A stretch of 10,854 nt of DNA from Lysinibacillus sp. (GTDB lineage Bacteria; Bacillota; Bacilli; Bacillales_A; Planococcaceae). The notes under the pieces are model-generated. The model was not told the DNA's origin, ran no database searches, and saw nothing but the letters and a program-made list of their open reading frames with translations. The stretch spans positions 1-10,854 of the forward strand of contig JAAYHP010000228.1 of NCBI GenBank assembly GCA_012735355.1, in the 5' to 3' direction. Position numbers and translations under genes: made by a program. Below, one piece after another: positions 1-8,966 of the stretch (the stretch's first letter is position 1; every line of letters begins with the position of its first letter).

Positions 1-71
1 AAAAATATCGCTGGACTTTGATTTGATTTTATTTTTGGTTCGATATGTTTAAAATCAAAAGGTGACTTCAT
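1..71 (-). CDS. 5' end of an unidentified gene, cut by the window edge
   Basis: An ATG at 71-69 (minus strand) is preceded by a good Shine-Dalgarno site (GGGAGGAAA, a few bases upstream), and the frame stays open to the window edge for 23 codons. The visible N-terminus begins MKSPFDFKHIEPKIKSNQ. It is polar, with no signal peptide or membrane segment, and I do not recognise a family from so short a piece. It is divergent from the plus-strand gene starting at 425. A promoter candidate lies at 119-148. The start is well supported by its ribosome site; the identity is unknown. Confidence 0.55.
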   Translation of the reverse strand, partial: MKSPFDFKHIEPKIKSNQSPAIF

Positions 72-118
72 AGCGTTTCCTCCCTAAATATTAGAAACTA
101 TAAATTTCTACTATTTGA

Positions 119-148
119 TATATAATTTTTATCCTACCATTTTTCCAA
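119..148 (-). promoter_or_regulatory. Candidate sigma-A promoter for the left-edge gene
   Basis: On the minus strand, TTGGAA (143-148) and TATATA (119-124) are separated by 18 bases. Transcription would begin roughly 40 bases before the ATG at 71. An inverted repeat TAGAAA/TTTCTA (92-97 and 105-110) lies between this promoter and the start codon and could be an operator. In DNA this AT-rich such matches are common, so this is a weak call. Confidence 0.3.
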
Positions 149-332
149 TCATTCGACACTATTGCACACTAGAAGAAATGTATTTATTTTTATTCCCTAT
201 AAAAACGGTAAATTAATAGCATCGCTTAAAACAAAGGTAGTTCCTTCATTTTCATTATTATAGAAAATAATGTCGATATAATGATTCTTTTATATTATTT
301 TTAGTTTTATTGTCAACTTTTTTATTTTTAAT

Positions 333-365
333 TTGGAAAAATTGTAAATTTAGTTATAAACTAAA
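333..365 (+). promoter_or_regulatory. Candidate promoter with overlapping inverted repeat
   Basis: TTGGAA (333-338) and TATAAA (355-360) are separated by 16 bases and lie about 65 bases before the ATG at 425. A perfect 7-bp inverted repeat, TTTAGTT-ATA-AACTAAA (349-365), covers the proposed -10 element. That is where a repressor dimer would bind to block transcription. The repeat is visible directly; its function is inference, and chance is possible in this AT-rich DNA. Confidence 0.35.
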
Positions 366-424
366 ATTGAAACATTAATATTTATGTATCAAACATTGTA
401 AAAAACTATAAAGGGGTGTATTCC

Positions 425-1030
425 ATGTATAGGGAAATAACAGTGGATCGTAGCATATTGTATATTGAACAACATCATGTTGATACGTTTGTTAATTTAG
501 CAGAAAAGTATGAAGCTTTTAATGAAATAGTAAATGAAGCAGCTGTGAATAAAAAAGATGCATGGATTATCGCTTTTAATATATGGCTTTTATTGTTACC
601 TGATAATAGCAATATTATCCACTCTGCTGAAAAAACCCTATACTACTCCACAAATTTTGTCTTACTGAATGCATTTCAAAAGAATGCATATTTTAATCAA
701 TTGAAAATGCGCCAAATTCGCCCTGAACCATTATACTATATCCTTTCATTGAAACTTGCAGCTGGATTGAACAGCTGGCTTTTCTATGTAAAGGAAAAGA
801 ATAATTTAACATACATGGCTGAACGTAATAAACATAGAGTATATTTTGACAGTCACAACGGACCATCAGAAGAGGTACAAAGCTTTTTAGAAGATCAATC
901 AAAATTTGTGAAAGCAGCTGTGAAAGAATTAAATTCATCGGATTCCTTTGATAAAATGATTAAAGATTGCATAGATGACGCGATGAATCTTTATAATAGC
1001 CATTACGTAAATGAGCCATCCCCACAATGA
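425..1030 (+). CDS. Hypothetical protein, 201 aa, no family recognised
   Basis: The frame encodes a 201-residue protein. I start it at ATG 425 because the Shine-Dalgarno sequence AAAGGGG (410-416) ends 8 bases upstream; a GTG at 416 lies inside that site and is unlikely to be used. The product looks soluble and probably helical. It has one hydrophobic stretch near residues 47-60 (containing IWLLLLP), a YYILSLKLAAGL segment near the middle, and a charged C-terminal half. It has no signal peptide, no CxxC and no motif I can assign. It is the only gene in the window on the plus strand. Its stop codon sits in the loop of the terminator hairpin at 1010-1042, so it converges on the heme monooxygenase gene and is transcribed alone. 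Confidence 0.75.
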   Translation: MYREITVDRSILYIEQHHVDTFVNLAEKYEAFNEIVNEAAVNKKDAWIIAFNIWLLLLPDNSNIIHSAEKTLYYSTNFVLLNAFQKNAYFNQLKMRQIRPEPLYYILSLKLAAGLNSWLFYVKEKNNLTYMAERNKHRVYFDSHNGPSEEVQSFLEDQSKFVKAAVKELNSSDSFDKMIKDCIDDAMNLYNSHYVNEPSPQ

Positions 1031-1055
1031 GAATGGCTCATTTATTAATCATTAA
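1010..1055. terminator. Probable bidirectional intrinsic terminator
   Basis: A perfect 10-bp stem, AATGAGCCAT (1010-1019) with ATGGCTCATT (1033-1042), encloses a 13-base loop that contains the stop codon of the plus-strand gene. It is followed on the plus strand by T-rich sequence (TATTAATCATTAATTATTTT). Read on the minus strand it sits just past the stop of the heme monooxygenase gene (1052), but its T-tract is short there. It therefore probably ends the plus-strand gene efficiently and may also serve the nrd/heme side. Confidence 0.6.
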
Positions 1056-1369
1056 TTATTTTCTAATGTAGATGCGACTTCTGCAATTACTACTAAATTG
1101 TCAATTGTTGGACTGTTTTCGTCGGCACCGCTCGGGCGTGTATGGGATTCTTTAAAAGCATCGCTATTTCTCCAAACTTCAAAGTCTTCTAGCGTATCCC
1201 AATACATCACAACGCTCATTTCATCATAATCTTCAAATTGAGTACTAACTAACACTTCCACTTTTCGGAAACCTTTGAAAGTAAGTAATGCCCCTGGTTG
1301 TGTAAATCGAGGTGCCATTTTTTTTGCAAAACCTTTTTTTACTCTAATTCGGTTTGTTACTGTATACAT
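1052..1369 (-). CDS. Heme-degrading monooxygenase, IsdG/HmoA type
   Basis: This 105-residue protein belongs to the antibiotic-biosynthesis-monooxygenase (ABM) fold family of non-canonical heme oxygenases, cytoplasmic enzymes that open the heme ring and release iron. From the start at 1369 it shows the catalytic Asn6 (in MYTVTNRI), Trp66 (EVWRNSDAF) and His76 (ESHTRPSG). This matches the N-W-H triad and spacing of Staphylococcus aureus IsdG/IsdI, so it should be active. An upstream in-frame ATG at 1393 would add 8 residues, but AAAGGGG lies between the two ATGs and serves the one at 1369. A near-perfect Fur box (1398-1412) lies about 30 bases upstream, so expression should rise in iron limitation. 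nrdF ends about 80 bases upstream with no strong terminator between, so some readthrough from the nrd operon is possible. Confidence 0.88.
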   Translation of the reverse strand: MYTVTNRIRVKKGFAKKMAPRFTQPGALLTFKGFRKVEVLVSTQFEDYDEMSVVMYWDTLEDFEVWRNSDAFKESHTRPSGADENSPTIDNLVVIAEVASTLENN

Positions 1370-1397
1370 TATAAGTTCCCCTTTACAGTTCATTTAT

Positions 1398-1412
1398 TGA
1401 GAATCATTATCA
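1398..1412 (-). promoter_or_regulatory. Fur box before the heme monooxygenase gene
   Basis: The plus-strand sequence TGAGAATCATTATCA matches the Bacillus 7-1-7 Fur consensus TGATAATnATTATCA at 13 of the 14 specified positions. It lies just downstream of a possible minus-strand promoter (TTGCAG at 1438-1443, 17-base spacer, TTTAAT at 1415-1420) and before the heme monooxygenase start. That position suits iron-dependent repression. The box is a strong sequence match; the promoter assignment is weaker. Confidence 0.82.
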
Positions 1413-1447
1413 ATATTAAAACATAATTTTCATTGAACTGCAATGAT

Positions 1448-2431
1448 TTAAAATTTTGACGATAAAAAATCGAATTGAAACGTTTCATCTGTAATTGGCT
1501 CTACTTTTGCTAAAGCATAGGTTGAGCCTTTTTGGGAGAAAAAGTCGTAAGTCGATCCTTCATTTCGAATACCATTCATAACAATAGGGTTAATCTCTTC
1601 TTCAGGAAACATCGTTTCTAAACCTAAATTCATTAAAGCTTTATTTGCGTTATAACGGATGTATGCCTTTACCTCTTCAATTAATCCTGTTCCTTCATAT
1701 ATATCTTCCGTATATTGTAGTTCATTATCATATAAATCAAGTAAAAATTCATTCCCCCACACTTTTAATGCATCCTGCTCTTCCTTTTTCAGTCGATGGA
1801 AAATATTTTGGGCAAAGGCACCTACCGCTACACCGTGAATGGATTCATCTCTCAAAATGAGGGATATCACTTCCGCGCTATTCCGTAAAATCCCTTGTCC
1901 GCCTAAATAAAGGGGATAGAAAAATCCCGAATAAAATAAAAAGGATTCCAACATGACAGAAGCAAACATCGCTTTATAAAGGGATACTTCATCATTTTCC
2001 TTAATCGATGAATAAATTTCCGATATTTTATTCGCTTTGTATTGCAATTGTTGATTTTCCTTCACCCACTTGAACACTTCATCAATTTCATCGTTGTTGC
2101 ATAGGGTTGTAAAAATATATGAATAGGACTTGGCATGAATCGCTTCAAAGGCACCAAATACGGTTAATACCGCTTTTTCTTGTAAATCAGGATTGTATTT
2201 TGCAATTTCATTCATTCCGATATTCGTTTGAATAGTATCAAGGAGGGTTAGCCCACCAAATACTTTTTTATATGTTTCTTTATGTGAAAAGTCTTTCCAC
2301 TGTTTCATATCTTTTGACACGGCAATTTCTTCCGGAAACCACATTTGTTTCCATTGTTGATCCCAAAAAACTTTTGCAAGAGGGTTCGTTGTCTTGTTCC
2401 AGTTCACTGCTTCATATGTTAAATGGTGCAT
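1448..2431 (-). CDS. nrdF: Class Ib ribonucleotide reductase, small (radical) subunit NrdF
   Basis: NrdF carries the dimetal site and tyrosyl radical that start ribonucleotide reduction in NrdE. It is a cytoplasmic ferritin-fold protein of 327 residues, a normal length. Numbered from the start chosen here, visible metal ligands are Asp65 (LTLLDT), Glu96 and His99 (FEAIHAKSY), Glu162 (MLESFLFYSGF), and Glu196 and His199 (RDESIHG). The radical tyrosine is Tyr103. In class Ib enzymes the site is loaded with manganese with the help of NrdI, or with iron. I chose ATG 2431 because GGAGG lies 10 bases upstream; the ATG at 2440 is only about two bases after it. The gene overlaps the end of nrdE by 13 bases, so translation is probably coupled. 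It is the last gene of the nrdHIEF operon. Confidence 0.96.
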   Translation of the reverse strand: MHHLTYEAVNWNKTTNPLAKVFWDQQWKQMWFPEEIAVSKDMKQWKDFSHKETYKKVFGGLTLLDTIQTNIGMNEIAKYNPDLQEKAVLTVFGAFEAIHAKSYSYIFTTLCNNDEIDEVFKWVKENQQLQYKANKISEIYSSIKENDEVSLYKAMFASVMLESFLFYSGFFYPLYLGGQGILRNSAEVISLILRDESIHGVAVGAFAQNIFHRLKKEEQDALKVWGNEFLLDLYDNELQYTEDIYEGTGLIEEVKAYIRYNANKALMNLGLETMFPEEEINPIVMNGIRNEGSTYDFFSQKGSTYALAKVEPITDETFQFDFLSSKF

Positions 2432-4512
2432 GCTACACATTCCTCCAATGTTTGTAATCGTTGGCGAACATAATAAACGGTTTTAATTCCACGCAACCAT
2501 GCGTAAATATAAACCTTTGCCAATTGCTCTGTCGTCCACTGATCCGTTACATATAAAGTCATAGAAATCCCTTGGTCTACATGTTTTTGGGCTGTTGCGT
2601 ACAAATCAATTAATTTATATGGATCTATATCATAGGCTTCCACATACAACTTCAAATTGCCATTGTTTAAAAATGGCATCGGATAAATCGTTCGACTATC
2701 GGCATAATCGCGAATTTCAACCCGTTCGGTAATCGGTGCAATGGAAGCTGTACAAGAACGGATATAAGAAATCGAGACAGTTGGAGCGATGGCTAATCGA
2801 TATGCATTGAATAGACCATATTTCATCACGATTTCTTTCAATTGTTGCCACATCGCTGCTGTTATGACAGGAACATTTCCTAAAGCCTTTTTCACGATAG
2901 GGCTTGGCTCTTTATCAATTTTAGTTACATAATCGTTGAAGTAGCCTCCCGTTCTATATTCGCTTTCCTCAAATCCATAAAAAGTTACTCCCTTTTCCTT
3001 TGCCATTTCCATAGAAGCTTTTAATGAATAATAATTTAATGCTTCCATAAAGAAATCGACAAATTCAATCGATTCCGAAGAACCATACAATATATTTTCC
3101 GAGACGAAATGTCCGTGTAAATTCATTACTCCTAAACCAACTGAATGCATCAATTCGTTTGCTTTTTTAACAGAAGGTACGTTTTTAATGTTCGTCTTTA
3201 AAGATACTTGTGTTAATAACCGCATCGACGTATCCACCAACTCTTCAAAACTTTGAACTTTTGTCGACTGATGAACATCGATGGAACCTAAATTACAAGA
3301 AACGTCTAAACCATATTCATTCGGTTCATCCATATCTGTAATGATGCTCGTTTTTTGTACTTGTAATATTTCTGTACAAAGATTAGACATTTTCACTCTG
3401 CCAATATTTTTTAACGGGTGGGCTTCATTTACATGATCATCAAAAATTTCAAAAGGATATCCAGTTTCAAACTGGCTTTTTTTTATTTCCGTATAAAGTT
3501 TTCTTGCATTAATCCGCTTTAATTTTCGGATGTTCGGATGGCGTAGAAGCTCTTCATACATTTCTGTTATGCTGATTTCTGACATTCGTTTTCCATATTG
3601 CTGAAAAATATCGTAAGGACTAAATAATACGATGTCTTCGTCCTTTTTCATCAGTTCAAAAAATATATCAGGAATGATTACACCTGTTGATAATGTGGCA
3701 AGGCGAATTTTCTCATCCGCATTCGGCTTTTTCGATGAAATAAATTCTTCAATATCTCCATGAAAAATATTTAAATACACTACTCCAGAGCCGTTCCGTT
3801 GACCTAATTGGTTAGAGTAGGAAAAAGAATTTTCAAGTAGCTTCGCAACAGGCATGATACCACTTGCTCTATTTGCTATTCCTTTAATAGGATCACCTAA
3901 AGGTCTTAAGTCGGTTAAATTTACTCCGACCCCTCCCCCAAGTCTTGAAAGCTCTAAACAATAACCAATGTTTTCAGCGATGCTGTTCATCGTGTCATCC
4001 ATCGTCAATTTAAAACAACTTACTAACTCTCCCCGGGCTTTTTTCCCACTATTTAAAAAGGTTGGAGTAGCCGGTTGAAACGCTGCCATCATTGAATCAA
4101 TTGCTTTTGTTGCAAGCTTTTCATCCCCATCAGCTAAATAAAGAGCGACAATCGTCATTCGGTCTTCATAAGTTTCTAAAATTTCTTTTCCGTCTCTAGA
4201 TTTCATTGCATAGCTATCATAAAACTTACTCGCACTCATAAAAGAGCAAAATTGAAATTTGTAAGAATACGCTTTTTTAAAAATCGATTGGATAAAATCC
4301 GTGGAATACTTTTGTAAAAACTGTGCTTCATAATATTGCTCTTTTATTAACCATTGTATTTTCTCCTCTAAACTAGTAAATTTACGCATGTTTTTATCAA
4401 CATATTCCAATAAATATAGCCTTGTTGCCTCTCGATCTCTCTCTATATGAATGACCCCTGTTTCACTATATTGCTGTAACACTTCATTATTGAGCTTTAA
4501 ATATTCCTTCAT
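2419..4512 (-). CDS. nrdE: Class Ib ribonucleotide reductase, large (catalytic) subunit NrdE
   Basis: NrdE reduces ribonucleoside diphosphates to deoxyribonucleotides. The 697-residue length fits class Ib enzymes, which lack the full N-terminal ATP-cone. The redox cysteine pair is Cys166 (GELVSCFKL) and Cys406 (DVSCNLGSID). The active-site N-x-C-x-E motif is Asn377-Cys379-Glu381 (SNLCTE). The radical-transfer tyrosines are Tyr680-Tyr681 (TVYYVR). The C-terminal tail ends in ECVACTI, whose Cys692/Cys695 pair is recharged by NrdH. The glycine-rich loop LSRLGGGVGVN (about 188-198) is also typical. The start ATG has AAGGGG 8-9 bases upstream and overlaps the nrdI stop by 4 bases (ATGA). All catalytic residues I looked for are present. 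Confidence 0.97.
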   Translation of the reverse strand: MKEYLKLNNEVLQQYSETGVIHIERDREATRLYLLEYVDKNMRKFTSLEEKIQWLIKEQYYEAQFLQKYSTDFIQSIFKKAYSYKFQFCSFMSASKFYDSYAMKSRDGKEILETYEDRMTIVALYLADGDEKLATKAIDSMMAAFQPATPTFLNSGKKARGELVSCFKLTMDDTMNSIAENIGYCLELSRLGGGVGVNLTDLRPLGDPIKGIANRASGIMPVAKLLENSFSYSNQLGQRNGSGVVYLNIFHGDIEEFISSKKPNADEKIRLATLSTGVIIPDIFFELMKKDEDIVLFSPYDIFQQYGKRMSEISITEMYEELLRHPNIRKLKRINARKLYTEIKKSQFETGYPFEIFDDHVNEAHPLKNIGRVKMSNLCTEILQVQKTSIITDMDEPNEYGLDVSCNLGSIDVHQSTKVQSFEELVDTSMRLLTQVSLKTNIKNVPSVKKANELMHSVGLGVMNLHGHFVSENILYGSSESIEFVDFFMEALNYYSLKASMEMAKEKGVTFYGFEESEYRTGGYFNDYVTKIDKEPSPIVKKALGNVPVITAAMWQQLKEIVMKYGLFNAYRLAIAPTVSISYIRSCTASIAPITERVEIRDYADSRTIYPMPFLNNGNLKLYVEAYDIDPYKLIDLYATAQKHVDQGISMTLYVTDQWTTEQLAKVYIYAWLRGIKTVYYVRQRLQTLEECVACTI

Positions 4513-4880
4513 ACGAAAATCCCCTTCTCAATTACTTCATGATAAAACTGTATAATCTTGTCATAATCCTTTTGGAATCCCCGCAACTCTATTTTGCGTA
4601 CGATAGGTATGCCAAAATTTCTATGAATAATATCTGCCGATTTACAAAAATAAGCATGCCCAAAGTTGGAATTACCGCTAGCGATTACACCTTTACAAAA
4701 CTCACTATTGCGTTGTAAAAAACTTTCGACGACTTTAGGGACTTCCCCTAATCCATCTGTATAAGTGAACAATAAAAAAGGTTGTTCTAAAATAAGGCCG
4801 TCATCAATTTCAATATAGGGTAACCCTAATTGCTTAACAATGTAACGAACATTTCCAGTTCTCGAAGAATAGGCAATCAT
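4509..4880 (-). CDS. nrdI: NrdI, flavodoxin-like activator of class Ib RNR
   Basis: NrdI is a small flavodoxin-like FMN protein. It supplies the oxidant used to assemble the dimanganese-tyrosyl radical cofactor in NrdF. This 123-residue product shows the FMN phosphate loop near the N-terminus (YSSRTGNV, residues 4-11), the TYTDGLGEVP loop in the middle, and the SGNSNFGHAYFC segment with the downstream LRGFQKDYDKI region that is diagnostic for the family. It overlaps nrdH upstream and nrdE downstream by 4 bases each. There is no strong Shine-Dalgarno site of its own, so it probably depends on translation of nrdH, which matters because nrdH seems frameshifted. Confidence 0.95.
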   Translation of the reverse strand: MIAYSSRTGNVRYIVKQLGLPYIEIDDGLILEQPFLLFTYTDGLGEVPKVVESFLQRNSEFCKGVIASGNSNFGHAYFCKSADIIHRNFGIPIVRKIELRGFQKDYDKIIQFYHEVIEKGIFV

Positions 4881-5106
4881 AGTGGCATCTTGCTAATGGA
4901 TTCTTTCATGCTTTCTATATCACCCATTAGCTCTCCATTTATTTCAACAACTGGAACCGTTAAAAATCCTCTTGCTAGTAACTTCTGTTTAGCTTCTTCA
5001 TTGTTATCAATAAATATTTCTTCGTATTTTCCTTCAAGTCCTAATTTGTTTAACTCAAATTTCAAAAGCATGCATTTTGGGCAAACAGTTTCGTATAAAG
5101 CTTCAT
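4877..5106 (-). pseudogene. nrdH: NrdH glutaredoxin-like redoxin, apparently frameshifted near its start
   Basis: NrdH is the thioredoxin-fold electron donor of class Ib RNR. The ATG at 5106 follows a purine-rich ribosome site (AAAGGAAG) and begins MKLYTK, a typical NrdH start. In that frame translation ends after 14 codons (MKLYTKLFAQNACF). The -1 frame continues as TVCPKCMLLKFELNKLG and runs to the expected C-terminus, including the TVPVVEINGELMGD cis-proline and glutathione-like loop region. Adding one A to the AAA run at 5089-5091 would restore MKLYTKTVCPKC and a normal redoxin of about 76 residues. As the sequence stands, the only ATG in the long frame lies just after the second active-site cysteine (64 residues, no CxxC). 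The restored frame overlaps nrdI by 4 bases. The cause is either a real mutation or a sequencing error in a homopolymer. Confidence 0.8.
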
Positions 5107-5137
5107 ATTTCTCTTCCTTTCCTATTACTTAATAAAT

Positions 5138-5168
5138 AAAAAAAGCCATACCGTAAACGGTATAGCTT
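5138..5168 (-). terminator. Intrinsic terminator of the cobalamin riboswitch
   Basis: On the minus strand, AAGCTATACCG (5168-5158) pairs with CGGTATGGCTT (5153-5143) as an 11-bp stem with one U-G pair. The loop is TTTA, and the stem runs straight into a 7-T run followed by ATTTATT. It lies between the riboswitch aptamer and the nrdH start, the classic place for a transcription-attenuating expression platform. The structure is visible directly; control by cobalamin is inferred from the adjacent aptamer. Confidence 0.9.
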
Positions 5169-5182
5169 AGAAATGGAAACAG

Positions 5183-5232
5183 TCGGGCATTATAGGAAAT
5201 GGACCTTCTTGCTTCCATTTCCTAGCCCCCGA
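5183..5232 (-). promoter_or_regulatory. Long hairpin between aptamer and terminator
   Basis: In the leader RNA, TAGGAAATGG (5224-5215) pairs perfectly with CCATTTCCTA (5202-5193). Across a small internal loop, TCGGG (5232-5228) pairs with CCCGA (5187-5183). The first arm could instead pair with a second copy, TTCCATTTCTA (5178-5168), which touches the terminator stem. It may be part of the switching platform or simply a spacer hairpin. Confidence 0.6.
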
Positions 5233-5248
5233 AGAAATGTGCAATATC

Positions 5249-5417
5249 GTTTATTAGGCAGGTCTCCTGGCTTAAGCTTCATCCTACAAGTTCCCTTCCC
5301 ATACGAATTCGTACAGTGGTTTTGAACTTTTCGGCAGCATTTTACAGTTGCGGGGACAGCATCAGATTTTCACTGATTTCCCTTTTAATCTACTACATAT
5401 AGTAGAACCTAACAAAC
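5249..5417 (-). ncRNA. Cobalamin (AdoCbl-type) riboswitch aptamer
   Basis: Read on the minus strand this is a complete cobalamin aptamer. P1 forms between GTTTGTTAGG (5417-5408) and CCTAATAAAC (5258-5249). P2 is TCTACTA-TATG-TAGTAGA (5406-5389). The core GCTGTCCCCGCAACTGTAA is at 5360-5342, and the B12 box GCCAGGAGACCTGCC is at 5271-5257. The peripheral CCACTG...TGGGAAGG arm, closed by AAGTTC/GAACTT, is the form found in adenosylcobalamin-sensing class I aptamers. The aptamer lies between the nrd promoter and a strong terminator, so bound AdoCbl should stop transcription before nrdH. It points at the reductase operon, not at the cobalamin salvage genes, which lie upstream of it. Confidence 0.95.
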
Positions 5418-5437
5418 TAATATACCATATATTGTGT
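5390..5437 (-). promoter_or_regulatory. Tandem NrdR-box-like sites in the nrd leader
   Basis: ACACAATATATGGTAT (5437-5422) fits the NrdR box consensus acaCwAtATaTwGwgt at 14 of 16 positions. CTACTATATGTAGTAG (5405-5390) fits at 11 of 16, with 9 of 10 in the CwAtATaTwG core. The starts are 32 bp apart with a 16-bp gap, the spacing known for paired NrdR boxes. They lie just downstream of the predicted transcription start, where a repressor would block the promoter. The second site is also the P2 palindrome of the riboswitch, which could explain its fit by chance. Confidence 0.55.
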
Positions 5438-5447
5438 TGTGTGTTTT

Positions 5448-5476
5448 ATTCTATCATGACCTTATGGTAATGGCAA
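5448..5476 (-). promoter_or_regulatory. Sigma-A promoter of the nrdHIEF operon
   Basis: On the minus strand, TTGCCA (5476-5471) and TAGAAT (5453-5448) are separated by exactly 17 bases, a good match to the vegetative consensus. Transcription should begin near 5441, about 24 bases before the aptamer P1 stem. The promoter lies between the end of cblS (5499) and the riboswitch, so the nrd operon can be transcribed independently of the salvage genes. I see no terminator after cblS, so readthrough into the leader is also possible. Confidence 0.7.
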
Positions 5477-5498: not shown

Positions 5499-6173
5499 TT
5501 ATCGAATTTTAATCGGTTCAATCGGTGCACTAATATATTCATATAATTGTTCAGTTTTTCCTTTTTCCACCGCTACGATAACGCTTGTGGCAGGTCCCGA
5601 TGATTTTTCAAGGGGTAAGTCACATTCTACTTCAAAACCATTGAATAGCCTTGAAAGCTCTGCACCGATTCCTCTAGAACCGACTGGCCAAACTCGTTTT
5701 AAAACCCCTAATTTAATTAATAAATAAATTTCACTTAACTTCACTACATCGTCTTTATGTTCGATTACTTCTTGTCCAACGAGCGGTTTTCCTACAACAA
5801 ACCAATCACATAGCTCGGCGGAAGTATCCCTTAAGATTTTCCCTACCATCATGACGCTTATGCCCGATTGTAAAGATTTGAAATTCGATTCTGTAGAACC
5901 AGCTAAAGGTGGCATTTTTTCTCCAATTTCTTCTAAGGCTTTGGAAATTCCTCTCTCATAATCTTTCCATGCGTCCTCTCCCGTAAAATTCGATAAAAAT
6001 AAATGGGTAGGATGACTTCCAGCACACCATTGTTCCAATAAACCAACCCGCGCTGAATAATAGGCCGTTAATTCGTTTGATGCTTTCACCGCGTCCAATT
6101 CCTTTTCTCCGATACAACCGGAATTATCGACAGTAACAACATATTGTTGATCTATAATGACAGCATTTCTCAT
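5499..6173 (-). CDS. cblS: Alpha-ribazole kinase CblS (AIR synthase-like fold)
   Basis: The product resembles the CblS alpha-ribazole kinases described in Listeria and Geobacillus, which phosphorylate salvaged alpha-ribazole to alpha-ribazole phosphate, the lower-ligand substrate of CobS. It has 224 residues, is cytoplasmic and has no membrane segment. The N-terminal TVDNSGCIGEKELDAV stretch (about 14-29) resembles the acidic nucleotide/metal-binding start of PurM/ThiL-like proteins. A second conserved-looking stretch, VWPVGSRGIGAELSRLFNG, lies near residues 160-180. The start ATG overlaps the cblT stop by 4 bases, which links kinase and transporter. The identification rests on remembered family features plus the tight cblT/cobS context. 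The alternative is an uncharacterised AIR-synthase-related protein. Confidence 0.82.
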   Translation of the reverse strand: MRNAVIIDQQYVVTVDNSGCIGEKELDAVKASNELTAYYSARVGLLEQWCAGSHPTHLFLSNFTGEDAWKDYERGISKALEEIGEKMPPLAGSTESNFKSLQSGISVMMVGKILRDTSAELCDWFVVGKPLVGQEVIEHKDDVVKLSEIYLLIKLGVLKRVWPVGSRGIGAELSRLFNGFEVECDLPLEKSSGPATSVIVAVEKGKTEQLYEYISAPIEPIKIR

Positions 6174-6664
6174 ACATTTCGAACCTTTCTTTTATTAAAA
6201 ATATTCATGATCATTGGTATAAACATAAAAGCCACAATCGCATTGATCAACGTCGCGATGAATAAATTCGGAAGGGATAAGAAGTAAAATTCCGGCGACA
6301 CTAAAAAATAAAATGGTAACGGAGCAAGTAATCCATTAGCTACAATTAAAAAAGCCCACTTCAAAACATGATTGCCTTTTTGGTGAAACACATTAAAGAA
6401 ATAAACGATGAGAAACATTTCAACTGCAATGATGAAGTGAAATGGACCTAACGGAAAACCTGAAGTTAAACCTGTCGTTAAGTGACCAATTAGCCCTGCA
6501 AATCCTGAATAGATTGGCGGTAAAAATGCAACGCTAATAAACGCAGGAGCAGAATCCAGCGCTGCTGTTGTAATAAAACCCGGCACTTTAATAAAACTAC
6601 CGATAACACAAAGAGCTGATATCAAAGCAGTAAGCACAATATATCGTAATTTGCTACTTTCCAT
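6170..6664 (-). CDS. cblT: CblT, ECF transporter S-component for alpha-ribazole
   Basis: A 164-residue, very hydrophobic membrane protein with about five to six predicted helices, the size of an ECF-type substrate-binding S-component. The N-terminal LRYIVLTALISALCVIGSF helix and the GHLTTGLTSGFPLGPFHF loop near the middle are typical of such proteins. It needs the shared ECF energizing module (EcfA, EcfA', EcfT), which is not encoded here. Its 4-base overlap with cblS and its place among cobU/cobS/cobC genes indicate alpha-ribazole as substrate, as shown for Listeria/Geobacillus CblT. Transport of another cobalamin precursor is the main alternative. Its start shares a TAATG junction with the upstream gene and has a strong GGGGGAG site. 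Confidence 0.83.
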   Translation of the reverse strand: MESSKLRYIVLTALISALCVIGSFIKVPGFITTAALDSAPAFISVAFLPPIYSGFAGLIGHLTTGLTSGFPLGPFHFIIAVEMFLIVYFFNVFHQKGNHVLKWAFLIVANGLLAPLPFYFLVSPEFYFLSLPNLFIATLINAIVAFMFIPMIMNIFNKRKVRNV

Positions 6665-7080
6665 TAAAACTCTCCCCCTTTTAAAATCTCAGGTATTCCG
6701 TACCAAACACGAATCACTTTTTCGCTTTTCATAAAAAGCTGTTGATATAATCTACCACATGTGTCTCGTAACTTTCTATCTTCCTTCGATAAAGGAACAA
6801 TGCCTCGACCGATATCAGTACAAATACAAACTACATTGGCCAGACTGTCTAATATAATTAATTGCCTTAAGATGTCCGATACAATTTTCTCTTCATCTAC
6901 ATCTTTATATTGGGGAATAATCTTTTCAAAATTTCCAATAATGATATAATCTTCTTTTGTAAAATTTCCTTTAGGAAGTTCACCTTCATATGTATAAATA
7001 TTTTTTATTCCCTTACTTTTTAAAGTCTCCATTACAAATTTTCTTTTACCGTTATAGGCACCACCGATAACTGCGTGCAT
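6664..7080 (-). CDS. Short, divergent CobU-like protein
   Basis: At 138 residues this is clearly shorter than CobU (about 180). It has an N-terminal P-loop-like GGAYNGKR (6-13), with Arg where CobU has Ser after the lysine. The middle part carrying the guanylated histidine (RHxxDR-like) is missing. The C-terminal part looks canonical for CobU: CTDIGRGIVPLSKEDRKLRDTCGRLYQ and then WYGIPEILK. It may be a regulatory or accessory subunit, a specialised kinase, or a degenerate duplicate. The ATG has a strong GGGGGAG site and overlaps cobC by 49 bases. It sits in the middle of an intact cobalamin salvage operon and its frame is undamaged, so it is probably kept for a function. Confidence 0.75.
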   Translation of the reverse strand: MHAVIGGAYNGKRKFVMETLKSKGIKNIYTYEGELPKGNFTKEDYIIIGNFEKIIPQYKDVDEEKIVSDILRQLIILDSLANVVCICTDIGRGIVPLSKEDRKLRDTCGRLYQQLFMKSEKVIRVWYGIPEILKGGEF

Positions 7081-7628
7081 CCAACTCCCCCTTTGAATAA
7101 CTGTATATTAGGCCATTGCAACGTATAAATAGTGCGATGCTCAGCATGAATGTCTTGAAAATCCTTATCCATTAAAAACTTTGAGAGCAATAACCGAATC
7201 ACCCCGCCATGGACGATAAACACATACTCTCCCTTTTTATTTACAATCCGCTGAAAGCAATCTAACACTCTTTTTTCAAAATTTTGAAAGGATTCTCCAT
7301 TAGGTGGTGTCACTGTTCGGGGTAAATCAATCCACTCTCGATAAATGGGTAAATCTTTTAATTCGTCATAAGTTTTCATTTCAAAATCCCCGAAATAAAG
7401 CTCTTTTAAATCAGGGTACCCTTCGAAATTAGCTGTCGGAAAGTAAAGGGTGCTCGTTTCATAACAACGTTTTAAATCGCTACCATAAACGACATTAGTC
7501 TTTATTGGAATGTTACATGTTATATTTTGATTAACGATTGACTCATCGGTCCAACCAACATATTTACGTTCCATATTTCCTTTAGTTTTTTCATGCCGGA
7601 TTAAATGAATAACAACAGAATCCCCCAT
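7032..7628 (-). CDS. cobC: CobC-like alpha-ribazole phosphatase (histidine phosphatase family)
   Basis: This cytoplasmic enzyme would remove the 5'-phosphate from adenosylcobalamin phosphate or alpha-ribazole phosphate, the last step of nucleotide-loop assembly. The 198-residue protein begins with the phosphohistidine motif HLIRHEKTKGN (nucleophile His12). It has the acid-bearing region ELYFGDFEMKTYDEL near residue 92 and the second catalytic histidine in FIVHGGVIRLLL near residue 139. The histidine phosphatase fold alone does not fix the substrate; the position between cobS and the CobU-like gene does. It overlaps cobS by 28 bases and the next gene by 49 bases, so the operon is tightly packed. 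I saw no other in-frame start near ATG 7628; the Shine-Dalgarno spacing there is long. Confidence 0.87.
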   Translation of the reverse strand: MGDSVVIHLIRHEKTKGNMERKYVGWTDESIVNQNITCNIPIKTNVVYGSDLKRCYETSTLYFPTANFEGYPDLKELYFGDFEMKTYDELKDLPIYREWIDLPRTVTPPNGESFQNFEKRVLDCFQRIVNKKGEYVFIVHGGVIRLLLSKFLMDKDFQDIHAEHRTIYTLQWPNIQLFKGGVGCTQLSVVPITVKENL

Positions 7629-8374
7629 AACGCCAATTCCATCCCTTCATATAAAGCACCAAGTAAATCTCCTGTCATTCCACCAAAATGCTTTATTGTC
7701 CACTTTCGGTACAAAATAGTAAAGCCAAACATACAAACTAATAAAATGAATATAGTACTATTATGCAAAATAAAACTTGTAAAAATAATAATGAAAATAT
7801 ATAACACAATATACATCCATAGATGCTGGTCCAAAACTTGATTTTTAAAATATGCTGCTAACCCAGTATCTTTTATATTTTTCGTCAAATTAAAATAAAT
7901 TAACATCGCTAATCGGCTTAACACTGGGATAAATATAAAAAAGCAAAGCATATCATGTGGTTGTTGTATTAATATTTCATAAAAAAAAGCTATTTTTAAT
8001 AATAGCATAACGAATAATCCGATTGCTCCAAAGGCTCCTACCCTTGAATCACTTAATATTTCCAATCTTCTTTCCCGATCTCTATAAGAAAAATAGGCAT
8101 CACTTAAATCAATCCAGCCATCAACATGTAGCCCACCTGTCATGGCAATATTTAAAACAACAATCACGATGGCTAGTAAAAGTGGCGTAAATTGAAAGTA
8201 TGTATTGTTCAAATAATTTGTGAAAACAATGATTAGTCCCATGAAAAAACTAATGATTGGCATTGTACAAAACATCGCTGTTACGCTTTGTTGATTCATT
8301 GGTAATGTCTTTCGTATAGGGATGGATGTAAAAAATTGAAGAGATAATAAAAAACCATTTAAAATGTTTTTCAA
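7601..8374 (-). CDS. cobS: CobS, adenosylcobinamide-GDP ribazoletransferase (cobalamin synthase)
   Basis: CobS is the integral membrane enzyme that joins adenosylcobinamide-GDP with alpha-ribazole (or its phosphate) to form adenosylcobalamin (or its 5'-phosphate). The 257-residue protein has the usual length and many hydrophobic helices. It shows the family's acidic signature GGLHVDGWIDLSDAYFS (residues 80-96) followed by DRERRLEILSDSRVGAFG, the metal/substrate region. An N-terminal SLQFFTSIPI segment is also typical. Translation starts at a TTG (8374) with AAGGTGG about 7 bases upstream. It begins 12 bases after the cobU stop. Its substrates would come from CobU (corrinoid side) and from CblT/CblS (alpha-ribazole side). 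Confidence 0.95.
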   Translation of the reverse strand: MKNILNGFLLSLQFFTSIPIRKTLPMNQQSVTAMFCTMPIISFFMGLIIVFTNYLNNTYFQFTPLLLAIVIVVLNIAMTGGLHVDGWIDLSDAYFSYRDRERRLEILSDSRVGAFGAIGLFVMLLLKIAFFYEILIQQPHDMLCFFIFIPVLSRLAMLIYFNLTKNIKDTGLAAYFKNQVLDQHLWMYIVLYIFIIIFTSFILHNSTIFILLVCMFGFTILYRKWTIKHFGGMTGDLLGALYEGMELALWGILLLFI

Positions 8375-8386
8375 TATGACACCACC

Positions 8387-8941
8387 TTATTTTCTCCGTA
8401 CGCTTATACTATAATCTAATTCGTAGGCTTCATCGCAAGTTGAAACAATCCATTGATGAAGCTTTCCAAGTAATTCCCTATATAAATTCACTTCTTTAAA
8501 TGTAGAAGTTGGCTCATCTAACACTTCATTGGAAACAAGGATGACTGTAGCGCCATCGTTTCTCCACTGTATTACTTTCGTCTGTAATAGTTTAATGATT
8601 TGATGAATTTTCATTGTTCTTTCATGTTCGAACGATTCTGTTACATATAATACATTATTTAACCAAGTAGTAATACAATCCCATAAAATTATATCACCGA
8701 TTTGAAAAGTTGTGGATGGCAGTTCAGTTTCTACTTCGATCGTAGTCCAAGGCATGTTGGACTTTAATCGATCCTCTTGATGCCGTAAAATCCGCTTTTT
8801 CATTTCATCATCAAAACCAACTCCGGAGGCTAAATAATATAGGTTTGTTTGTTTTTTTTGAAAAAGTTGTTGCGCATATCGTTCTGCAAAGGCGCTTTTT
8901 CCACTTCGAACGCATCCGGTAATAAATATAATTTTATCCAA
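8387..8941 (-). CDS. cobU: CobU, adenosylcobinamide kinase/guanylyltransferase
   Basis: CobU phosphorylates adenosylcobinamide and then adds GMP to give adenosylcobinamide-GDP, the substrate of CobS. From the start chosen here the protein has 184 residues, with a P-loop TGCVRSGKS (8-16), the RHQEDR segment holding the likely guanylated His54, and ILWDCITTWLNN in the middle. The C-terminal part is unusual: after VSNEV it reads LDEPTSTFKEVNLYREL instead of the usual GxGxVP...RDxxGRxNQ motif. I prefer TTG 8941 as start because GGGGG lies 7 bases upstream; ATG 8947 is almost on top of that site. It begins 25 bases after the germination gene stop with no terminator between. Confidence 0.9.
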   Translation of the reverse strand: MDKIIFITGCVRSGKSAFAERYAQQLFQKKQTNLYYLASGVGFDDEMKKRILRHQEDRLKSNMPWTTIEVETELPSTTFQIGDIILWDCITTWLNNVLYVTESFEHERTMKIHQIIKLLQTKVIQWRNDGATVILVSNEVLDEPTSTFKEVNLYRELLGKLHQWIVSTCDEAYELDYSISVRRK

Positions 8942-8966
8942 AATCATTCCCCCTAGTTCTCTTCAA

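Follow-up and report, generated by a model that had tools for sequence, protein, structure and literature searches.

A cobalamin riboswitch before a class Ib ribonucleotide reductase operon of Lysinibacillus, with a candidate NrdR operator box in its P2 helix

The stretch of DNA analysed here, which we call the window, comprises 10,854 nucleotides of a contig (JAAYHP010000228.1) from Lysinibacillus sp. On its minus strand it carries a cobalamin gene cluster (5499-8947), followed on the same strand by the nrd leader and the nrd genes (Table 1). Within the cluster, the ECF S component gene and the unmatched gene next to the leader resemble the alpha-ribazole transporter/kinase pair CblT/CblS. 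The first-pass annotation had read the nrd genes as an nrdH-nrdI-nrdE-nrdF series on one strand. NrdI, NrdE and NrdF were all found above their NCBIfam cut-offs in a single operon, as expected of class Ib, but the reading frame of nrdH is broken: the ATG is in one frame and the CPKC motif in another, and the product scanned from 5071 falls far under the NCBIfam cut-off (25.9 versus 85.75 bits). The gene is intact in two relatives (loci L009 and L051), and the break in the window is possibly a real inactivation or an assembly error. This break and the NrdR boxes described below had been missed in the first reading. Four more cobalamin riboswitches were found elsewhere in the assembly of the same genome; judged by eye from their open frames, these seem to stand before btuF-like ABC transporter, cbiM-like, cobT-like and FecCD/btuC-like genes.

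Table 1. Positions of genes and leader elements in the window
Feature	Position	Strand	Basis or remark
cobU	8947-8387	-	followed by cobS and a CobC-like phosphatase gene
short second CobU-like gene	6664-7080	-	
ECF S component gene	6170-6664	-	
unmatched gene	6173-5499	-	directly before the nrd leader
sigma-70-type promoter candidate, TTGCCA-17-TAGAAT, TG before -10	5448..5476	-	10/12 matches
NrdR box 1, ACACAATATATGGTAT	5422..5437	-	end overlaps first bases of aptamer match
cobalamin riboswitch aptamer (RF00174)	5427-5240	-	Rfam match, full length
P1 5' strand of aptamer	5418-5407	-	
P2 hairpin of aptamer, CTACTATATGTAGTAG; proposed NrdR box 2	5390..5405	-	published core motif, preferred spacing
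L5 (UGUCCCC), kissing-loop partner of L13	5352..5358	-	
B12 box	5273-5257	-	Rfam match and sequence
P13 stem	5216..5239	-	L13 at 5231-5224, CGGGGGCU
antiterminator helix	5170..5221 (5221-5211 with 5180-5170)	-	predicted; extends through L13 to terminator 5' arm
intrinsic terminator	5168-5143	-	11 pairs, 4-base loop, T run
nrdH, frame broken	4877..5106	-	break between ATG (5106) and CPKC motif (5083-5072)
nrdI	4880-4509	-	TIGR00333, 89.8 bits, cut-off 74.65
nrdE, class Ib large subunit	4512-2419	-	TIGR04170, 918.4 bits, cut-off 750
nrdF, class Ib small subunit	2440-1448	-	TIGR04171, 429.4 bits, cut-off 355

A cobalamin aptamer had been read in front of the nrd genes from the letters alone, and an Rfam check of the site confirmed this observation. 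The RF00174 match spans the full model (positions 1-189) and scores 134.9 bits against a gathering threshold of 31.5 (E 1.5e-34); it is the sole match listed for the window at E <=1, with an overlapping hit from the same clan left aside. The positions first given for the 5' strand of P1 and for the B12 box were right to within one or two bases. The aptamer is predicted to bind AdoCbl. Transcription would be expected to start near 5441, from the promoter candidate in Table 1, which is weak when taken alone because two such sites were found where 1.9 are expected by chance.

We then compared the window with its relatives. The sample consisted of 121 genomes of the family, that of the window included, and 120 stretches upstream of class I large-subunit genes, from 117 of the other genomes, were scanned with Rfam; G044 and G058, whose nrdE places were not listed, and G107, in which no NrdE was found, were left out of the 117. 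NrdJ was called in two parts. An RTPR profile matched in 96 genomes, mostly weakly, and in none of those where a scan with TIGR02504 showed class I only; that scan, run on 32 genomes, added G039, G108 and G110 and confirmed 21 absences besides the genome of the window. A cobalamin riboswitch was present on the nrd strand in 96 of the 120 stretches. Counted by genome, 95 of the 96 with NrdJ have it in front of a class I operon, compared with 0 of 21 without NrdJ. The exception, G098, has NrdJ and no riboswitch at nrdE; this assembly shows 8% contamination, and its NrdJ lies on a 4 kb contig whose identity to the 12 nrdJ loci used for comparison does not exceed 77%. Among genomes with two operons, the riboswitch stands before both in G005, before one in G041 (contig C22, locus L085, carries the operon without it) and before neither in G043, which has no NrdJ. 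Cobalamin riboswitches are present elsewhere in all 21 genomes lacking NrdJ, from 1 to 12 in each. These 21 genomes span eight genera, and since four of the genera (g1, g3, g7 and g17) also include genomes with NrdJ and the riboswitch, the two would have undergone at least four joint changes, provided that the genera are natural groups. The isozyme-switch logic proposed in the first-pass annotation, in which cobalamin supply decides between a class I reductase and NrdJ, is well supported by these counts and by a decayed riboswitch remnant in G113, a genome without NrdJ.

Three groups of riboswitch leaders can be told apart, of 26 stretches plus the window, of 59 stretches and of 11 stretches. 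NrdI is encoded upstream of NrdE in all 26 stretches of the first group and in 0 of the 11 of the third, and one large subunit of the second group is a class I enzyme of another type (NF006665) that does not reach the class Ib cut-off. Among named genomes, NrdE exceeded the class Ib cut-off in all 10 that were scanned, and a B12 box was found at most 1.5 kb upstream of nrdE at 18 of 27 loci, including those of a Neobacillus, two Paenibacillus and a Cohnella. Several other features were seen in passing. At L125, L126 and L152 the cobalamin riboswitch is preceded, at a distance of some 0.9-1.5 kb, by a guanidine-I riboswitch of the same orientation; group I introns lie inside nrdJ at L174 (6754-7278, G046) and L177 (4887-5144, G033); and short or split nrdJ and nrdE frames occur in further genomes of the family.

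The first-pass annotation had inferred that the genome of the window itself also encodes NrdJ. The profiles TIGR02504, PF02867 and TIGR02505 found no NrdJ in the assembly, which is 90.6% complete, but the place where nrdJ would be expected falls in a contig gap. In Ureibacillus thermosphaericus (G029), nrdJ, identified by profile search, follows a yqhQ-like gene and a TSUP gene and precedes lipM, yqhL and gcvPB (neighbours named by eye). The 19 kb around it match the genome of the window as far as the final base of C80, a contig that ends within the yqhQ-like gene; the match resumes at yqhL on C467 and gcvPB on C41. Between the C80 and C467 matches there is only a 349-base match of 68% to a TSUP gene on C222; this gene was rejected as a marker of the nrdJ place, being 60.5% identical to the nrdJ-adjacent one and having other neighbours. 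No lipM ortholog was found in the assembly either, the best lipM-like match having 30% identity. Because C80 ends inside the upstream gene and lipM is missing too, the absence of NrdJ coincides with an assembly gap, which weakens loss of nrdJ as its reason. The place has also been rearranged, since an unrelated block of about 4.5 kb, not lipM, precedes yqhL on C467; positions 1-4555 of this contig (L189) encode a response regulator, a histidine kinase and a membrane protein, where U. thermosphaericus has lipM and nrdJ. A monomeric class II reductase (RTPR) was considered as a hidden B12 enzyme and rejected, as it had no match in the genome of the window. RTPR exceeded the cut-off in one of the 121 family genomes, G117, where locus L036 (contig C30) holds an RTPR-type class II reductase in a frame of 772 aa plus another NrdJ-like frame.

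Behind the aptamer, the strong terminator noted at first reading was recovered, one being present where shuffles gave 0.4. A terminator was detected in all 37 leaders searched, 51-134 nt past the aptamer in 36 of them and with a doubtful assignment in L096, and none of 100 shuffled leaders (20 leaders, five shuffles each) had one of -11.5 kcal/mol or better. L5 and L13 of the window leader can form six consecutive pairs; complementarity of this kind was found in 31 of the 37 leaders, several of which use hairpins other than P13, compared with 295 of 1850 shuffles. Each of the 26 class Ib leaders aligned can form all eight pairs of P13 (208 of 208 cells), and these pairs show no two-sided covariation. 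The 3' strand of P13 can alternatively pair, as GAAAUGGAAGC with GUUUCCAUUUC, within an extended helix that continues through L13 and reaches the foot of the 5' arm of the terminator. When cut before the 3' arm of the terminator, the window leader is predicted to fold into this antiterminator (-29.5 kcal/mol), competing folds having -23.9 kcal/mol with the antiterminator 3' strand unpaired and -16.6 kcal/mol with P13 enforced. All 26 class Ib leaders have a helix of at least nine pairs (L083 in a different register), compared with 464 of 3600 shuffles and 0 of 10 third-group leaders tested. Its covariation is small, at two pairs, with 28-40 of 500 shuffles equally good. We discarded covariation as support for P13 and the antiterminator, since it is weak in both, and likewise discarded upstream pairing of the terminator arm as proof of an antiterminator (31 of 36 leaders versus 992 of 1440 shuffles), the control being too close. 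The P13 3' strand is predicted to pair into an antiterminator exclusive with the terminator; the helix is above chance and the arm pairing barely so. An extra hairpin, AGGAAAUGGA/UCCAUUUCCU, was seen at 5223-5194 in the window and also in two relatives, with a compensating change in L051; it competes with P13 and the antiterminator and is compatible with the terminator.

We consider it very probable that the B12-independent class Ib reductase at this locus is under the control of a cobalamin riboswitch that represses by terminating transcription. Bound AdoCbl would let L5 and L13 kiss and stabilise P13, which would block the antiterminator, so that the terminator would form and nrdHIEF would not be expressed; B12-dependent NrdJ would then provide the deoxynucleotides. 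Without AdoCbl, the P13 3' strand and L13 would pair with the stretch preceding the terminator 5' arm, and nrdHIEF would be transcribed. NrdR, a sensor of dATP/ATP, would most likely act on initiation, through the box abutting the aptamer and a second box inside the P2 helix. A comparable riboswitch precedes metE of Priestia megaterium, where the mechanism was shown by mutation and cobalamin represses (PMC10653944). Its kissing loop, P13, antiterminator and terminator, with the P13 3' strand feeding the antiterminator, correspond to the elements predicted in the window; it differs in controlling methionine synthase and in that the window has the extra competing hairpin (PMC10653944).

Two other readings of the riboswitch were weighed. 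If NrdJ had truly been lost, the riboswitch would have to be a relic, as otherwise B12 would starve the cell of its sole reductase. The failure of three profiles to find NrdJ in the assembly speaks for such a loss, and G113, of the same genus, is likewise without NrdJ; the neighbourhood of nrdJ is, however, interrupted in this assembly, and in genomes lacking NrdJ the nrd riboswitch is gone (21 of 21) and visibly decayed in G113, whereas that of the window scores 134.9 bits. We regard the loss as very unlikely. More improbable still, to our mind, is that B12 binding activates nrdHIEF, as in A. halodurans cobT. An activating corrinoid riboswitch is known (PMC10653944), but in that type P13 and the terminator share a strand while here they are separate (Table 1), and activation of a B12-independent enzyme would leave its tie to NrdJ unexplained.

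We next examined the NrdR boxes of the leaders, with box scores (out of 16) against an NrdR consensus and with a motif test that used the published regular expression on both strands. An NrdR-like box stands 9-12 bases before the aptamer start and scores at least 13 in 42 of 45 nrd leaders, compared with a score of 13 in 12 of 900 shuffles and a higher one in none. Box 1 of the window scores 14, its core fits the published expression, and such a box directly precedes the aptamer in all 27 class Ib leaders compared. A second box upstream at the correct spacing was found in 0 of these 27; upstream candidates at short or long (40-43) spacing were rejected as background, with means of 6.4 and 7.4. 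In the same 27 leaders the P2 hairpin, 31-32 bp downstream of box 1, scores 11-12. The 11 third-group leaders are reversed, with 12.3 at the upstream position and 5.5 at P2. NrdRs of four species bind boxes 14-17 bp apart, with weaker or no binding at most other distances, as reported in one study (PMC12051234); in the window the gap of 22 between cores amounts to a spacing of 16 bp, which falls within this range by a motif that is loose.

By the published motif, a short-spaced pair (15-16 bp) with its second core in P2 is present in 27 of 27 class Ib leaders, while 0 of 27 cobalamin riboswitches not associated with nrd genes have a pair of any kind, and shuffling the downstream part yielded a pair in 79 of 5400 cases. 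Among further leaders, Neobacillus L031 has the pair of box 1 and P2, Paenibacillus L018 has an upstream pair and a P2 without the motif, and the motif finds no pair in L020 and L023. Of the ten bases of the P2 core, only positions 4 and 7 vary in the 27 unselected leaders, both of them motif-free (chance 0.13); with four more leaders, chosen for matching, position 2 varies too and position 4 takes a fourth letter (chance 0.03). P2 and the ligand core are about equally conserved, in contrast to P1 and several other loops, which drift. Over 97 leaders, uncorrected for kinship, 54 have the upstream box only, 32 the P2 box only, six both and five neither; the five with neither by score are second-group leaders of genus g3. 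In most second-group leaders the published expression detects no pair (53 of 59), although 49 of the 59 score at least 10 upstream against the consensus, and it also fits an unrelated P2 in 8 of the 11 third-group leaders that already have an upstream pair. NrdR itself was not found in the assembly of the window; it is present in 24 of 24 other genomes of the genus.

The boxes are also seen where the riboswitch is missing. Nine stretches without a riboswitch encode NrdI, in genera g1, g7, g16 and g18, all from genomes without NrdJ. Eight of them contain a pair by the published motif, 20-23 bases apart; seven of the eight have scores of at least 11 for both boxes, a level attained by 0 of 900 shuffles. 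The motif misses the boxes of the ninth (L063), which score 16 and 12 and lie 31 bases apart. One stretch, L064 of G113, has as its second box CTACTATATGTAGTAA, the P2 sequence, with a decayed riboswitch readable behind it. In this remnant the B12 box is changed (14 of 16 bases), the GCAACTG stretch is altered and no Rfam match is left; the rest of the aptamer shares 74% with L084, compared with 81-84% for four intact relatives (the misaligned row of L067 was not used). The core of box 1 is kept in G113 at 10 of 10 bases and that of P2 at 9 of 10, the change being at a motif-free position. Because G113 keeps the P2 box while its riboswitch has decayed, the P2 box appears to outlive the aptamer.

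These patterns suggest that P2, in the family's class Ib operons and in one of a Neobacillus, is probably both a helix of the RNA aptamer and the second DNA operator box of NrdR. In detail, it seems likely that the same 16 bp would serve as operator at initiation and as aptamer helix during elongation, the two sensors constraining each other's sequence; a further part of this reading, which we also think probable, is that upon loss of nrdJ the aptamer would decay and the P2 box would stay. It is less likely, but deserves serious weight, that the P2 box arose by chance and was passed on within one lineage of leaders and that NrdR acts via one box or not at all. The leaders do share ancestry, P2 hairpins are palindromes, the P2 boxes mismatch the consensus at some positions, and the expression is loose enough to fit unrelated P2 hairpins in the third group; the chance figures for the variable P2 positions are weak, five g3 leaders score for no second box at all, and P. 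acnes nrdAB is described with a single nrd-box (PMC3848588). Coincidence does not sit well, however, with the report that NrdR of S. coelicolor and of E. coli does not bind a single box and needs two (PMC12051234), with the contrast between class Ib leaders and other cobalamin riboswitches, with the largely mutual exclusion of upstream and P2 boxes over the 97 leaders, again uncorrected for kinship, or with the pair being kept in class Ib operons without the riboswitch. The double role of P2 is the reading we prefer.

Comparative work of about 2003 reportedly found, as a general rule, that B12-free isozymes are repressed by B12 where both isozymes exist. In Streptomyces, work by Borovok in 2006 reportedly showed that AdoCbl represses the B12-independent class Ia reductase operon nrdABS through a riboswitch where NrdJ exists, and that NrdR acts too; this system differs from the window in its class and in belonging to the Actinomycetota. 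The first-pass annotation had treated a class Ib version in a Bacillus-like host as unfamiliar, yet a 2021 review already places nrdEF (and metE) of P. megaterium under a cobalamin riboswitch with NrdJ present (PMC8390425). Like the operon of the window, it is a reductase operon of the Bacillales with a cobalamin riboswitch, and differs in that its control is only stated in the review (PMC8390425). In P. acnes, cobalamin riboswitches are annotated at nrdAB and nrdDG and NrdJ is present; nrdAB has its single nrd-box at the promoter, and RNA-seq suggests early termination (PMC3848588). P. acnes thus resembles the window in combining a riboswitch with an NrdR box at a reductase promoter in the presence of NrdJ, and differs in the operons concerned and in the single box reported at nrdAB (PMC3848588). 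Because these P. megaterium and P. acnes examples exist, the class Ib riboswitch described here is a further case of a known type. Known NrdR operators consist of two palindromic boxes commonly 15-16 bp apart, a spacing that the candidate boxes of the window share (PMC12051234, PMC9110341); in the window, by contrast, the second candidate forms part of a riboswitch helix that is transcribed. The main texts of these two papers contain the word "riboswitch" nowhere (PMC12051234, PMC9110341), and no mention of an NrdR box lying within a riboswitch turned up in the literature searched on B12 riboswitches, reductases and NrdR operators, most of it covered as listings.

The earlier interpretation is thus partly supported: its logic was right, NrdJ is unconfirmed in an incomplete genome, and the case is less new than hoped. 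The class Ib riboswitch was already known, and the P2 operator would be new if real; the overlap of two regulators, riboswitch and NrdR, is probably the unexpected feature of these leaders. For the family, the co-occurrence amounts to a wide natural test, by which class I reductases retain a cobalamin riboswitch only in the presence of NrdJ. If the reading of P2 is true, an aptamer helix doubles as a protein operator, with RNA and DNA codes layered on the same bases, and this would explain how seemingly one-box operons are controlled by a repressor that is said to need two.
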